Positions 47,420 through 53,308 of a stretch of DNA of 64,000 bases are shown here, one piece after another. Within the stretch, counting starts at the first letter, position 1. The number at the start of each line of letters is the position of its first letter. The position numbers and the translations under genes are program-made. The stretch is taken from NCBI RefSeq assembly GCF_029633965.1, contig NZ_CP091277.1:1609940-1673939 (forward strand). Direction: 5' to 3'. The DNA is from Methanogenium sp. S4BF (GTDB lineage: Archaea; Halobacteriota; Methanomicrobia; Methanomicrobiales; Methanomicrobiaceae). The notes under the pieces are model-generated. The model did no database searches, was not told the DNA's origin, and saw only the letters and a program-made list of their open reading frames with translations.

Positions 47420-49309
47420 TTACTCCTCCAGTGTCGAGATATCTCCCGGGTCAATCCCGAGTTCCTGTGCCTTTAATACCCGGCGCATGATCTTGCCGCT
47501 GCGGGTCTTCGGGAGTGAATCCACGAAGTCGATGGCAGACGGCATCGCAATCGGGCCGATGCTCATCCGCACATGGTAGATGAGATCTGACTTCAGCTTC
47601 TCTGTCGGTGTGTGCCCGTCCACGAGGATGACAAACGCCTTCACCGTCTGACCTTTCACCGGGTCAGGGATGCCTATTACAGCGGCCTCCGCCACCGCCT
47701 CATGGGAAACAAGCGCACTCTCCACCTCCGCCGTGCCCAGATTATGGCCGGAGACGATGATGATATCATCCGACCTCCCGAGGACCATGATGTATCCGTC
47801 TTCGTCCCTGACCGCAAGGTCGCCTGCCGTGTAGAAGCCGTTTATCGTCTCCCAGTAGGCCCGGTAGCGGGCGTCGTCATTGTTGACGGCCCGCATCTGT
47901 GCCGGCCACGGTTCTTTGATCACCAGGAGGCCACCGGTGCCCGGCTCGACCGGGTTGCCCTTTGCATCAACCACATCCACGACCACCCCGGGGATGGCTC
48001 TGCCGGCAAATCCCGGTTTCATCGGTTCGCCGACCGTGGTCGTGATCATATGCATCCCGGTTTCCGTCTGCCACCAGGTGTCAAGGAGTGGACAGCGCCC
48101 CTTCCCGATGACCCGGTAGTACCACTCAAACGCCTCAGGGTTGAGGGGTTCGCCCACCGAACCGATGAGCCGCAGGGAATCGAGATTATATCTGTTCGGC
48201 CACTCCTCGCCGACCCGCATGAACATCCGTATGGCCGTCGGGGCGGTGTAGAAGATGGTCACCCCGAAGTCCTCGACGATGCGCCAGAAGATGCCGGGGT
48301 CGGGATAGTCCGGGACCGTCTCGGTGATGAGTACCGTCGCACCCACGGAGAGCGGCCCGTAGACGATGTAGCTGTGGCCGGTGATCCACCCGGGGTCTGC
48401 CGTGCACCAGTGGACGTCGTTCTCCTTCATGTCAAAGACGTATTTTGTCGTGTAGTAGACACCGACCATGTACCCCCCGCAGGTGTGGACAATGCCCTTT
48501 GGCTGACCGGTCGTCCCGCTGGTATAGAGGATAAAAAGCGGATCTTCTGCATCCATCACGGCCGCCTCACAGGTGGCATCACCGCTTTCGAGCACCTCGT
48601 AGAAGTCCACCTCCATCTCACTGAAGAGTTCCGGGCCGGGATCAGACCGGCGGAGGACGATGATTTTCTCCACAGTAGGCGCATTGACAACTGCTTCATC
48701 GACGATGGCCTTCAGTGCGACGCGCTTGCCGCGGCGGTATCCGACGTCTGAAGTGATCACAAGTTTTGCCCCGGAGTCACGGATACGGGCGTTCAGTGCC
48801 GAGGCCCCGAACCCGCCATAGACGATGTTGTGGACAGCGCCGATTCGTGCACAGGCAAGGAGGGCGATGATGTGCTCAGGTACAAGCGGCATATAGAGGC
48901 AGACGGTGTCCCCCTTTGTGATGCCCATCTTTGTCAGGGCACTGCCAAACCGCATAACCTGACGGTAGAGCTGCCGGTAGGTGAGCACGCGCTCCTCCCC
49001 CTTCTCCCCACGCCAGATGAGCGCCACCTTGTTGCGCCGCTCGCCGGTCGCATGCCGGTCAAGGCAGTTGTGGGTAATATTGAGCTGTGCGTTTGTGAAC
49101 CACTCCGCGTACGGGGGGTTCCACTTCTTTACGTGGTCCCATCTCCTGAACCATTCGAGTTCGTCTGCGACTCCCTCCCAGAACCCGTCCGGGTCACGGA
49201 GGAAGCGCTGATACTCGGTGTCATAGTCGCCGATCAACGACTCTTCACGGACCGACGGGTCAGGAAGGTACACCGTATCTTCGAGTTTCACATCAAATGA
49301 ACCTGACAT
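47420..49309 (-). CDS. acs: acetyl-CoA synthetase (AMP-forming)
   Basis: 629-residue enzyme that activates acetate to acetyl-CoA with ATP. The P-loop YTSGTTGQPKGIVHTCGGY, the A-motif WWQTETGMHM, and the C-terminal SGKIMRRVL with the lysine needed for adenylation (and regulated by acetylation in relatives) are present. Most Methanomicrobiales need acetate as carbon source, so assimilation is the likely role. The ATG at 49309 follows GGTGGGAC. Upstream is an 18-base perfect palindrome between TATA and start; divergent from the HTH-PAS gene. Confidence 0.95.
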   Translation of the reverse strand: MSGSFDVKLEDTVYLPDPSVREESLIGDYDTEYQRFLRDPDGFWEGVADELEWFRRWDHVKKWNPPYAEWFTNAQLNITHNCLDRHATGERRNKVALIWRGEKGEERVLTYRQLYRQVMRFGSALTKMGITKGDTVCLYMPLVPEHIIALLACARIGAVHNIVYGGFGASALNARIRDSGAKLVITSDVGYRRGKRVALKAIVDEAVVNAPTVEKIIVLRRSDPGPELFSEMEVDFYEVLESGDATCEAAVMDAEDPLFILYTSGTTGQPKGIVHTCGGYMVGVYYTTKYVFDMKENDVHWCTADPGWITGHSYIVYGPLSVGATVLITETVPDYPDPGIFWRIVEDFGVTIFYTAPTAIRMFMRVGEEWPNRYNLDSLRLIGSVGEPLNPEAFEWYYRVIGKGRCPLLDTWWQTETGMHMITTTVGEPMKPGFAGRAIPGVVVDVVDAKGNPVEPGTGGLLVIKEPWPAQMRAVNNDDARYRAYWETINGFYTAGDLAVRDEDGYIMVLGRSDDIIIVSGHNLGTAEVESALVSHEAVAEAAVIGIPDPVKGQTVKAFVILVDGHTPTEKLKSDLIYHVRMSIGPIAMPSAIDFVDSLPKTRSGKIMRRVLKAQELGIDPGDISTLEE

Positions 49310-49320
49310 TGCGTCCCACC

Positions 49321-49338
49321 TACATGATTAATCATGTA
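49321..49338. promoter_or_regulatory. 18-bp perfect palindrome in the acs promoter
   Basis: TACATGATTAATCATGTA, perfect dyad. On the acs strand a TATA-like AAATATAC (49336-49343) overlaps its upstream edge, and the acs ATG is 12 bases beyond its other edge, so a protein bound here would block TBP or polymerase. Likely repressor operator. Confidence 0.6.
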
Positions 49339-49402: not shown

Positions 49403-49417
49403 CAATGCAATGCATTG
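49403..49417. promoter_or_regulatory. operator-like dyad 1 (CAATGCA-A-TGCATTG)
   Basis: Odd-centred 15-base perfect dyad in the acs/HTH-PAS spacer, upstream of the TATA box of the HTH-PAS gene. It shares ATGCA-N-TGCAT with the dyad at 49468-49482, 65 bases away. A separate perfect dyad, CCAATATTGG, lies at 49423-49432. Confidence 0.55.
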
Positions 49418-49442
49418 CCACTCCAATATTGGCACACACACA

Positions 49443-49450
49443 TATAAATA
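49443..49450 (+). promoter_or_regulatory. TATA box of the HTH-PAS regulator gene
   Basis: TATAAATA. The expected transcription start is at about 49472, inside the second dyad, leaving a leader of roughly 45 bases before the ATG at 49516 with GGGAGAGGGAGAG as ribosome site. Confidence 0.6.
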
Positions 49451-49467
49451 TTCTTTAGGCACAACAG

Positions 49468-49482
49468 TTATGCACTGCATAA
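49468..49482. promoter_or_regulatory. operator-like dyad 2 (TTATGCA-C-TGCATAA)
   Basis: Odd-centred 15-base perfect dyad over the predicted transcription start of the HTH-PAS gene, sharing ATGCA-N-TGCAT with dyad 1. Position and similarity suggest an operator for autoregulation. Confidence 0.58.
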
Positions 49483-49515: not shown

Positions 49516-50910
49516 ATGACAACCGAATGGAAAGAAAAAGAGCAGATCCGGGAGTTGCTTGAGAAATCACCCACAGGGATGACAATCACCGAGATCTCCG
49601 CCACCCTCGGTATGCACCGCAACACCACGGCGAAGTACCTGGACATGCTGGTCGCTACCGGAGAGATCGACCGGAAACGGATGGGACCGGCAAAGGCATA
49701 TTTTCCTGCACGGCGGATGCCGGCGGGTGCCCTCCCCCTCACCACCCCACCCACACGCCTCTGTCTGACGTCCCGCCTGGAGGTGACCGGGGCCACGCAG
49801 GAAGCCATGAGCCTCTTCCACATCCCGGAAGGGGCCGAATTCACACCCAATATTGATATCCCATCCCCTCTCTTCCGGGATGAATCCTTCCTTACCAAAT
49901 GCCGGGATGCAGTAGCAGGCATGCCGGGAGAATACCGCACCACCATCACCCGAAACCGGCAGCAGACCGACCTGGAAATCCACCTCATCCCCATCGTATT
50001 TGCGAGCGGTGCCGCAGGCTGTGCCGCCACATTCACCGACATCACCGAAAGCGCCACCGCAGAAGAGCAGAATACCTGGAAAGAACGCTACACCGCACTC
50101 AGCGAAGACCTCACCGAATGGATCGTCCACATCTCCCCTTCAATGACCATTGACTTCGCAAACGCCGCATTCTGCCGTCATGCAGGACGCACAGCCGAAC
50201 GTATCGCAGGCATCAGGTTTCTGCCGGCATTCAGGGCAGATGAACGCCGCCACCTCGACTCCCTCATCGGCACCCTTCTGCCCGGAGGCAGCCCGGTGAC
50301 AGCAGAAATCCGCGCCATCCGCCGGGACGGATCTCCCGGCTGGGAAACATGGACCATCCGGGCACTCGGCGGAATTGGCGGCCCAATCACCGGCTATCAT
50401 GCCACAGGACATGATATCACGGCACTCAAGCACTGCGAGGAGCAGATCCTGCAGTATCACCAGAACCTCGAAGAAAATATCCAGAAGAGGACCGCAGAGA
50501 TGCAGCAGGCAAACCAGGCACTTATGGCCGTCCTTGCGGAGAAAGAAGATCTGGAACGTGAACTGCTTTTTACCCGCCAGGCCTTTGATCAGGCCTCAGA
50601 CTCCATCCTCCTCTTCAGCCGTGACGGCAGCATCTGCCAGACAAACCGGACCGCAGAGGAGCTTTTAGGCTACCGGAGAGAAGAACTCGCAGACTGCACC
50701 GTCTTTGACGTCAACCCATCCCTCACCCGCGAGGCATGGGACAGGATGTGGAGCGAACCGGAACCCGGCAGAAAAGAGCGGACAATATCCGTTCACCGCA
50801 GGCGTGACGGGACCATCTTTGATGTCGACCTCTCCCGGACCTTTGTGAAGGCAGACAATGAGATGTACTTCTGCTCAATTGCACGGGAAATCGAGAGAGA
50901 CCCAAAATAA
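49516..50910 (+). CDS. HTH-PAS one-component regulator
   Basis: 464 residues. The first 60 form a winged helix (MTITEISATLGMHRNTTAKY LDMLVATGEI), followed by PAS-like modules at about 75-180, 190-310 and 345-460, and a coiled coil (about 312-345, EEQILQYHQNLEENIQKRTAEM). No kinase domain is present, so ligand sensing by PAS probably acts directly on DNA binding. It diverges from acs across a spacer with repeated dyads, one at its own start site. Control of itself and perhaps acs is inferred. Such HTH-PAS proteins are common in Methanomicrobiales. The next gene, a sensor kinase, converges with it. Confidence 0.82.
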   Translation: MTTEWKEKEQIRELLEKSPTGMTITEISATLGMHRNTTAKYLDMLVATGEIDRKRMGPAKAYFPARRMPAGALPLTTPPTRLCLTSRLEVTGATQEAMSLFHIPEGAEFTPNIDIPSPLFRDESFLTKCRDAVAGMPGEYRTTITRNRQQTDLEIHLIPIVFASGAAGCAATFTDITESATAEEQNTWKERYTALSEDLTEWIVHISPSMTIDFANAAFCRHAGRTAERIAGIRFLPAFRADERRHLDSLIGTLLPGGSPVTAEIRAIRRDGSPGWETWTIRALGGIGGPITGYHATGHDITALKHCEEQILQYHQNLEENIQKRTAEMQQANQALMAVLAEKEDLERELLFTRQAFDQASDSILLFSRDGSICQTNRTAEELLGYRREELADCTVFDVNPSLTREAWDRMWSEPEPGRKERTISVHRRRDGTIFDVDLSRTFVKADNEMYFCSIAREIERDPK

Positions 50911-50939: not shown

Positions 50940-53114
50940 TCACTCAGTGGAGAGAGACCTGAATTTACCTTCCGGAACCAGTATCTCAAAGCAGGCCCCA
51001 CTGCCCGGCACACCACATTCCCGTATCAGCATCCCTGTCAGATCAAGAATTTCCCGCGACAGGAAAAGCCCGAATCCGGTATTTTTCCCCACACCCTTTA
51101 AGAATATTCTCTCCTTCATATCCCCGGGGACGCCCACGCCATCATCGGCAACGATAATGCACCCCCCATTCCCGCGCCCCTCAAATGAGACCGTGACCCC
51201 ATGCACCGTGCCCCCGTGCATCACGGAATTTCCGATAAGATTGGCAAAGACCTTCCCCAGCATGCGGTCGGCATAGACGGCAAGATCCCGCACCCCATTA
51301 TTGACCGTGATCACACCGGCAAACGATTCTGCTTCACGGCTGATGACAGCACCGATGTCCTGCCATTCAGGTTCATTCACCCCGAGATCCTCATAATCAC
51401 GGGTAAAGGTGATGATCCGCTCCAGATTGGCCATAATCCCCTCCGCCGCTTCAAAAAATTCCCGCAGTTTTTCAGAATCAGCAGCATCACCCTCAATCAG
51501 CTCCAGATACAGATTCATTGAAGTAATCTGATTCAGAATGTCATGGCGCGTAATGCTGGAGAGAATATTCAGTTTCTTGTTTGCCTTCTTCAGGGCAGCA
51601 TCCATCATTTTGAGATCAGTGATATCAAGGAACACCCCCTGGATACCCACCACCACACCGTTTTCCCGGAGGGGCCTGCTGGATTCCAGCACCCACCGGA
51701 CAGACCCGGCATCTGTCAACAGCCGGAACGTCGACTTTTTTGTAATCCCGGAGAGGCGCTCATGGAAATGCCCCTCCAGCCGGTGCCGGTCTTCAGGATG
51801 GATGAATTCTATGAAATTTCTGCCGATCAACTCAGAGGGGCAATAGCCCGCCCCCCCGACCAGCCTGTTAATTGCCGGGCTGACATAGGTAAAATTACCA
51901 TTCAGATCCAGCCGGAAAATAACCTCATTGATATTTTCAACAAGATCCCGATATTCCTGTTCACGCACCCGGAGAGCCCGCTCCGCCCCTTTACGCTCTG
52001 TGATATCCCGGACAATTGAGAGGGCGACAGGCACCCCATTCATCTGAAAGACATTCACCGACACCTCAACGGGCAGAATCTCCCCTTCCTTCGTTACGTG
52101 CCGCCATTCAAAGATAAAACGGCCCTTCCCGCCAATTTCAGAGAGGAGAGAACCAAGATGCACATCCATATCCGGATCATTGAGATCAGAAACCATCATC
52201 CCCAGGAGTTCTTCCCGCGAATAGCCCATCCTCCGGGACGCAGCATCATTGGCCTCCAGAATCTGCCCGGGAATCCCCCCCGGCATCACCAGGGTATGCA
52301 GATAGATCATATCATTGGCCGACTGAAACAGCAGATTGTATTTCTCCCTCTCCTGCCGGACGGCCTCCTGTGATGCCTTTACCACAGAGATATCCGTACC
52401 CCTCTCAACAAACCCGCATATCCCACCCCGGTCGTCAGTAACAGGAGAGGTCGTGACCAGATATGACCCCCCGTCCGGATGAGTGACTTCAGCAGACACA
52501 GCCCTGCCGGATGCGATGACCTTCGGGATTCGGCACCGGGTGCAGGGCGCATCCCTTCCCCAGAGCACCTCATAGCAGTGCCTGCCGACAGCATGATGTT
52601 CATCCACGCCGTGAGCAATGTAAAAAGACCGGTTCGCCCAGACAATGACACGATCCAGCCCGGTGAAGACCGTCGGATCATCCGATGAGTCCAGAACCAT
52701 CCGCAGCTCAGACTGGAGCGGCACCGGAGGACAGCAGGCCATTTTCTTCGCCACCAGCCTGCGGACAGCCCCCGCAAGTGCCCCCATCTGCGCCTCAGGA
52801 TCATCCCCTTTCCTGAAGTACTGATCCGCTCCCGCATTCAGGGCCTCAATGACAGTCGCCTCTCCGCCGGCAGCAGTGAGAACAATGAAGGGAGTGCAGT
52901 CACCTGCCAGACGGATGGCCCTTAAAACATCCATTCCGTCTTTGGCAGGAGGTGCAAGTTCCGAGATGATGGCATCATATCCGGCATCATGCAGTTTCAG
53001 GAGCGCATCAGCAGACGACAATGTGAAATCGACAGAAAATCCCCCTGAGTCAGAGAGGCATCGTTCAGCCGCATGGAGGAACTGTTCATCATCGTCAATA
53101 TAGAGGATACGCAT
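50940..53114 (-). CDS. hybrid sensor histidine kinase with atypical receiver
   Basis: 724 residues. An N-terminal receiver domain (1-120) has the acidic residues (IDDDEQ), Thr80 (IVLTA) and Lys102 but carries Glu52 (AIISELAPPAKDG) where the phosphoacceptor Asp should be. Then PAS domains at about 145-260, 270-385 and 395-505 (one with a Cys-rich insert, RDAPCTRCR), a histidine box (SITRHDILNQITSMNLYLEL) and a HATPase domain (IGNSVMHGG, DDGVGVPGDM, GFGLFLSREI). No transmembrane segment, so cytoplasmic. The start is ATG 53114 or one of the ATGs at 53120/53123. Signal unknown. Converges with the HTH-PAS gene. Confidence 0.88.
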   Translation of the reverse strand: MRILYIDDDEQFLHAAERCLSDSGGFSVDFTLSSADALLKLHDAGYDAIISELAPPAKDGMDVLRAIRLAGDCTPFIVLTAAGGEATVIEALNAGADQYFRKGDDPEAQMGALAGAVRRLVAKKMACCPPVPLQSELRMVLDSSDDPTVFTGLDRVIVWANRSFYIAHGVDEHHAVGRHCYEVLWGRDAPCTRCRIPKVIASGRAVSAEVTHPDGGSYLVTTSPVTDDRGGICGFVERGTDISVVKASQEAVRQEREKYNLLFQSANDMIYLHTLVMPGGIPGQILEANDAASRRMGYSREELLGMMVSDLNDPDMDVHLGSLLSEIGGKGRFIFEWRHVTKEGEILPVEVSVNVFQMNGVPVALSIVRDITERKGAERALRVREQEYRDLVENINEVIFRLDLNGNFTYVSPAINRLVGGAGYCPSELIGRNFIEFIHPEDRHRLEGHFHERLSGITKKSTFRLLTDAGSVRWVLESSRPLRENGVVVGIQGVFLDITDLKMMDAALKKANKKLNILSSITRHDILNQITSMNLYLELIEGDAADSEKLREFFEAAEGIMANLERIITFTRDYEDLGVNEPEWQDIGAVISREAESFAGVITVNNGVRDLAVYADRMLGKVFANLIGNSVMHGGTVHGVTVSFEGRGNGGCIIVADDGVGVPGDMKERIFLKGVGKNTGFGLFLSREILDLTGMLIRECGVPGSGACFEILVPEGKFRSLSTE

Positions 53115-53308
53115 GTACATCATCCGGAATGGAAAACCATGTAACACCTAAAATTTGCAATCTCCGACTTTTACCCTTTCGCATTTCGGCACATACCGCA
53201 GCCGGGAACGGAAAGGGCAGCACGATCACCCCACGGAGGATGGAGGACACCCGCCTTTCGCCAAAACGGCCCTGCACCAAAAGAGACGCCCCCTCCAGGG
53301 AGGGATAT

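Follow-up and report, generated by a model that had tools for sequence, protein, structure and literature searches.

Paired palindromes in the acs/HTH-PAS intergenic region of Methanomicrobiales: a probable autoregulatory operator of the adjacent HTH-PAS protein

Inverted repeats that lie between two divergent genes raise the questions of which protein reads them and which of the two genes they serve. In the Methanogenium DNA analysed here (a stretch of 64 kb, hereafter the window), a spacer of 206 bp separates the start of acs (49309) from that of a gene encoding an HTH-PAS regulator (49516). A preliminary description, made from the sequence alone, reported two perfect 15-base dyads with a common core in this spacer, 65 bases apart and the first of them upstream of the TATA box; it counted four dyads in all and named the HTH-PAS protein as the obvious candidate to bind them. 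The two dyads, their separation from centre to centre and the position of dyad 1, whose centre is approximately 36 bp upstream of the TATA centre, are confirmed (Table 1), and the count is correct if dyads 1 and 2 are taken with CCAATATTGG and the acs palindrome. One placement was wrong. Dyad 2 was thought to cover the start of the HTH-PAS gene; the gene's ATG, at 49516 and preceded by in-frame stops, is 33 bp beyond the dyad, and the ATG within dyad 2 (49470) is out of the HTH-PAS frame. Dyad 2 is found approximately 29 bp downstream of the TATA box. Archaeal mRNA starts approximately 25 bp downstream of TATA and hence, given the position of TATAAAT, dyad 2 covers the expected start of transcription. 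The GCACAAC element, which shows conservation close to the level of dyad 2, may be an extra (third) half-site (TGCAC) or an initiation element.

Table 1. Features of the acs/HTH-PAS locus, in window coordinates.
Feature	Position	Strand	Sequence	Basis or remark
acs, acetate-CoA ligase (AMP-forming), divergent partner	47420-49309	-		Above TIGR02188 curated cut-off
acs palindrome	49321-49338		TACATGATTAATCATGTA	Perfect, 18 bp; directly 5' of acs ribosome-binding site; core in 10 of 28 family genomes, one copy each
Dyad 1, candidate upstream operator	49403-49417		CAATGCA-A-TGCATTG	Perfect 15-bp dyad, arms of 7, centre 49410
Short dyad, probably chance	49423-49432		CCAATATTGG	No conservation in 16 aligned orthologs
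TATA box of HTH-PAS gene	49443-49449	+	TATAAAT	Core ATAAA at fixed distance from dyad 2 in 33 gap-free aligned orthologs; conserved columns in A1, A2
GCACAAC element, between TATA and dyad 2	49459-49465	+	GCACAAC	Conserved columns tGCa.aACa in 33 orthologs
Dyad 2, candidate operator at expected HTH-PAS transcription start	49468-49482		TTATGCA-C-TGCATAA	Perfect, arms of 7, centre 49475
HTH-PAS regulator	49516-50910	+		ORF; Pfam HTH_IclR and PAS matches; AlphaFold2 model, mean pLDDT 87.7

The window contains 15 perfect dyads whose arms are 7 bases or longer, three of which (dyads 1 and 2 and the acs palindrome) fall within the spacer. When the spacer was shuffled 20,000 times with its dinucleotides preserved, no shuffle contained three such dyads, 0.04% contained two or more, and only two shuffles produced two odd dyads having a common 5-base arm; a chance origin of the dyads in the window is excluded. 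Allowing one mismatch, the window has 3 copies of the motif against 3.1 expected, and hence no enrichment.

Among 232 genomes of the class, 42 were found to contain orthologs of the regulator (E up to 1e-75), and a more divergent ortholog (G066) was recovered through its promoter match, giving 43 orthologs in four families. L031 was left out, being the C-terminal portion of a split gene to which L099 also belongs, as were the dyad-to-start distances of L029 and L032, where the start codons are uncertain. TGCA-type sites are present in 33 of the 43, comprising 17 in the family of the window's own genome, 8 in f3, 7 in f6, and G066. Among these 33, the core of dyad 2, ATGCANTGCAT, is exact in 31 and has one mismatch in two. 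The core of dyad 1 is matched at 11 of 11 positions in 4 orthologs, 10 in 14, 9 in 11, 8 in 3 and 6 in 1 (L048), that is, at 8 or more positions in 32 of 33; at control offsets that are out of register, 3.1% of positions reach 8/11. The spacing between the dyads is 65 bp in 20 orthologs, 64 bp in 12 (the alignment gives 64 bp for L025 and L026) and 63 bp in one. A gap-free alignment of the 33 promoters on dyad 2 yields the consensus ATAAAt.tt...t.tGCa.aACa.aTATGCA.TGCATa, in which dyad 2 carries 1.87 bits per column, compared to 0.18 for the bases that follow it and 0.35 for the stretch from dyad 1 to TATA; the spacer around the dyads is without conservation among orthologs. Two Methanogenium loci match the HTH-PAS protein of the window at 80% and 77%; outside the genus, the proteins are only about 38-54% identical, and hence the sameness of the site is not due to residual similarity. 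We consider the dyads a strong phylogenetic footprint. The preliminary description had asked whether the dyads are lost from HTH-PAS orthologs: followed across the 33, dyad 2 is kept in every one and dyad 1 stands at near-constant spacing in 32.

This conservation bears on two explanations that dispense with a regulator. The notion of chance palindromes could draw on the genome-wide count of exact ATGCANTGCAT, which at 11 sites in the window's genome hardly exceeds the 9 sites of a variant with a 5-base spacer, taken as background; yet it is already refuted by conservation in 33 orthologs at near-fixed spacing, and its probability is negligible. Alternatively, dyad 2 might be a core-promoter or initiator element, or form a hairpin in the mRNA, as its place at the expected start and its fixed distance from TATA would allow. 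We regard this as very improbable. The nine other genomic copies of ATGCANTGCAT all lie in ORFs, eight of them in ORFs of at least 150 codons and the ninth in an ORF of 110 codons (an ORF is not itself proof of coding), and with no other exact copy outside ORFs in that genome, dyad 2 is not a general promoter element. Furthermore, the second copy is on the upstream side of TATA, from which no initiator can work, and a single base between the arms would, judging from the sequence, leave a hairpin of only some three pairs around a five-base loop.

The motif is linked to the HTH-PAS gene and not to acs alone. When 150 genomes of the order were searched with a sequence profile of the segment from TATA to dyad 2, the 26 strongest matches (E <=1e-7) were all situated at the promoter of this regulator, 16 of them training sequences and 10 new. 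The next match belongs to a decayed module in G008, a draft genome that is 59% complete; at this locus (L094, 1322-2951) acs is frameshifted, the regulator is a remnant recognisable at residues 427-458, and both dyads are mutated. TGCANTGCA is absent from approximately 2.2 kb upstream of 18 acs genes without an adjacent HTH-PAS gene, from 400 bp upstream of 12 second-type acs copies in the family, and from up to 300 bp upstream of 14 HTH-PAS paralogs with other recognition motifs. A distant protein in L097 is the one other protein with the recognition motif HRN, and GTGCACTGCAT occurs about 90 bp before its start. The L097 contig (G001) has dyad copies at 1379 and 2551, 1.2 kb apart, one before the distant HRN-type HTH gene, which is cut by the contig end, and the other between two closely similar response-regulator/PAS genes.

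Beyond this promoter, WATGCASTGCATW occurs in 51 of the 150 genomes of the order, in 31 of them at the HTH-PAS promoter. We inspected 26 further WATGCASTGCATW sites, of which 17 are in ORFs of at least 150 codons and 9 are outside; with these 9 copies outside long ORFs, extra targets are possible. A genome-wide regulon was rejected, there being no recognisable pattern among the 26 further sites or among the nine other copies in the window's genome. The genome-wide motif search suggested in the preliminary description thus returned no enrichment of the exact 11-mer, as expected for a regulator with a single target, though this also takes away one independent line of testing.

The HTH-PAS protein comprises an N-terminal winged HTH, three PAS-like folds and a long helix (302-358), according to Pfam and the AlphaFold2 model, which places the recognition helix at residues 35-48 approximately, with the sequence HRN at 34-36. 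The winged HTH is of the IclR type (PF09339 HTH_IclR, 25.7 bits against a cut-off of 22), although Pfam finds no IclR effector-binding domain and the remainder of the protein is PAS. Nor are there Pfam matches to HTH_10, Bat or GAF, the HTH here being N-terminal, or to the REC receiver domain (Response_reg). Sensor and DNA-binding domain are thus joined in one chain, as in the one-component PAS-wHTH class, and an operator-like site is conserved in the protein's own promoter (in all 33 TGCA-type orthologs, and near the start in all 10 of the variant described below). These methanogens have many regulators that combine an N-terminal wHTH with PAS domains, several in each genome.

A gene for a REC-PAS-PAS-PAS histidine kinase (50940-53147) neighbours the HTH-PAS gene in convergent (tail-to-tail) orientation. 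The kinase was rejected as a partner of the regulator: of the six Methanogenium orthologs, counting the window, only four have a clear match downstream (at least 71% identity), and the weaker matches in L025, L026 and L092, at 30-36%, resemble general paralogs. In this survey, 12 of the 43 loci had too little downstream sequence.

The remaining ten orthologs, all from genus g35, a more distant clade, are without TGCA dyads and have ATGTACGACAT instead, exact in nine and one base off in the tenth, at the same position relative to a TATA-like sequence and the gene start as dyad 2. This site retains the outer ATG...CAT and the length of 11 bp, and differs in its core. A similar site in reverse orientation is located 117-152 bp upstream; it was picked as the best match over approximately 190 positions and is weaker evidence. 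The recognition helix changes along with the site, in this one clade: all 33 TGCA-type orthologs have HRN, and the g35 proteins have HRT (9 of 10) or HRS (1 of 10). In the AlphaFold2 model residue 35 is the first of the recognition helix, which puts the altered residue 36 at the N-terminus of that helix, a usual place for base contacts in HTH proteins. We consider this joint change of site and helix to be the best evidence for the HTH-PAS protein as the probable binder; being confined to one clade, it represents one evolutionary event. Asn36 would be insufficient by itself to specify TGCA, since the 14 paralogs without the motif mostly have NRN or NRD at the same place.

The choice of binder made in the preliminary description is therefore supported from three sides, by conservation among orthologs, by the absence of the motif at acs genes lacking an HTH-PAS neighbour, and by the joint change of site core and recognition helix. 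That some other regulator, encoded elsewhere, binds the dyads and controls the HTH-PAS gene is unlikely. The link between protein and site is indirect, and scattered intergenic copies of the motif elsewhere would suit such a regulator; nevertheless, each genome has one strong promoter, where a global regulator should have more sites, the motif co-occurs with HTH-PAS, and the core of the site alters together with the HTH-PAS recognition helix.

Dyads 1 and 2 are, we conclude, probably a dedicated and mainly autoregulatory operator pair of the adjacent HTH-PAS protein. From their arrangement we infer a scheme that takes in binding, repression, looping, the signal and any effect on acs. The protein would act as a dimer, probably held together through the long helix and the PAS domains, and would read ATGCA-S-TGCAT through the N-terminus of the recognition helix (His34-Arg35-Asn36). 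On dyad 2, between TATA and the message start, it would block access of RNA polymerase to its own promoter; on dyad 1, about six turns upstream and across TATA, it would increase the occupancy of dyad 2 through cooperation or looping, or else dyad 1 might serve in activation when dyad 2 is free. Cooperativity or looping is suggested by the conserved spacing of 63-65 bp (approximately 6.1 turns); this spacing is lost in g35, where the sites are farther apart, so a fixed loop length would not be general. A signal sensed by the PAS domains would switch the state and, because these domains are present and acs is the constant neighbour, that signal may relate to acetate, cell energy or redox.

An autoregulatory operator layout of this kind is already known, and in archaea a site lying between TATA and the transcription start is commonly repressive. 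Pyrococcus furiosus LrpA binds its own promoter just downstream of TATA and excludes RNA polymerase while TBP and TFB stay bound (PMC2995911), and the predicted site at dyad 2 is similarly placed. However, LrpA belongs to the Lrp proteins and has a RAM domain, whereas the HTH-PAS protein combines PAS domains with a wHTH of IclR-like profile, and its promoter has a second predicted site upstream of TATA. For TrmB, TrmBL1 and Tgr of Thermococcales, a motif downstream of BRE/TATA is associated with repression and one upstream with activation (PMC4158304); the HTH-PAS promoter has one copy of its motif on each side of TATA, although protein family and motif are different, both copies belong to a single gene, and no clear regulon is seen. 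By the position logic of LrpA and TrmB, dyad 2 would be the repression site and dyad 1 a helper or activation site. Ss-LrpB, with autoregulation by cooperative binding and DNA wrapping, is named as another close system, but is of a different family, and the HTH-PAS locus has a single predicted pair of sites 63-65 bp apart. PAS sensing is joined to an HTH in one archaeal regulator also in the halobacterial Bat type (PAS-GAF-HTH_10; PMC5847659); the HTH_10 of Bat is C-terminal, unlike the N-terminal HTH of the HTH-PAS protein, which has no HTH_10 or Bat match in Pfam. The protein, the operator motif and the specificity variant were not found in the open-licence papers searched.

The position of acs suggests a different emphasis, namely that the HTH-PAS protein mainly regulates acs, with dyad 1 as the acs site and dyad 2 as a feedback site. 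This is partly compatible with autoregulation, and we take it to be a serious possibility but rather an improbable one. In its support, acs is divergent from and adjoins the regulator in 42 of 43 orthologs, the copy at this locus being the one that accompanies the regulator within the family, and in most f3 loci only some 38 bp separate dyad 1 from the acs start codon. Across TGCA-type loci, however, anything from approximately 38 to 140 bp separates dyad 1 from the acs start while the spacing of the dyads is nearly fixed, which argues that the pair is built around the HTH-PAS promoter; furthermore, the best kept dyad is dyad 2, at the HTH-PAS start, and the motif occurs in no acs promoter without HTH-PAS. 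With a mainly autoregulatory pair, control of acs may come along. The window's genome has a second acs gene (G000:C1:923423-925279), approximately 65% identical to the copy at 47420-49309.

The other two dyads of the spacer have been considered as operators. CCAATATTGG was rejected as a third operator, being unconserved (Table 1). The acs palindrome is unsupported as a further copy of the same operator, since its sequence differs and it behaves independently. Its core, CATGATTAATCATG, is found at the acs leader in aligned orthologs, and the palindrome could fold into a hairpin of 7 bp closed by a UUAA loop; in the corresponding position, most f6 and some f3 leaders have hairpins of different sequence, whereas the others and g35 have none. 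The acs palindrome is a separate element, and may be either an mRNA structure (hairpin) or an operator of its own.

The case defines an 11-bp site precisely and supplies a promoter layout, a candidate residue for base reading and a specificity variant found in nature, and the HTH-PAS/acs locus offers an entry to the control of acetate assimilation in hydrogenotrophic methanogens. More broadly, and tentatively, for we would put it at somewhat below an even chance, the acs/HTH-PAS divergon may be a dedicated switch for acetate assimilation in Methanomicrobiales, with one target region in each genome and a specificity that has been rewritten at least once (Asn36 to Thr/Ser, with TGCASTGCA to TGTACGACA). 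If so, the two types would form a natural pair for reading how the PAS-wHTH family chooses its DNA.

Two sets of additional copies were noted. In L027, L028, L030 (129 bp from dyad 2) and L096 (at 1052), a copy of the dyad lies within the HTH coding region, over Ala-Leu-His codons; this is probably a codon coincidence, and possibly a further operator. In two species of genus g11 (L179 in G034 and L180 in G029), TATGCAGTGCATT occurs in similar surroundings, the L180 copy near the start of a membrane sensor gene, and is only suggestive of a possible second target.
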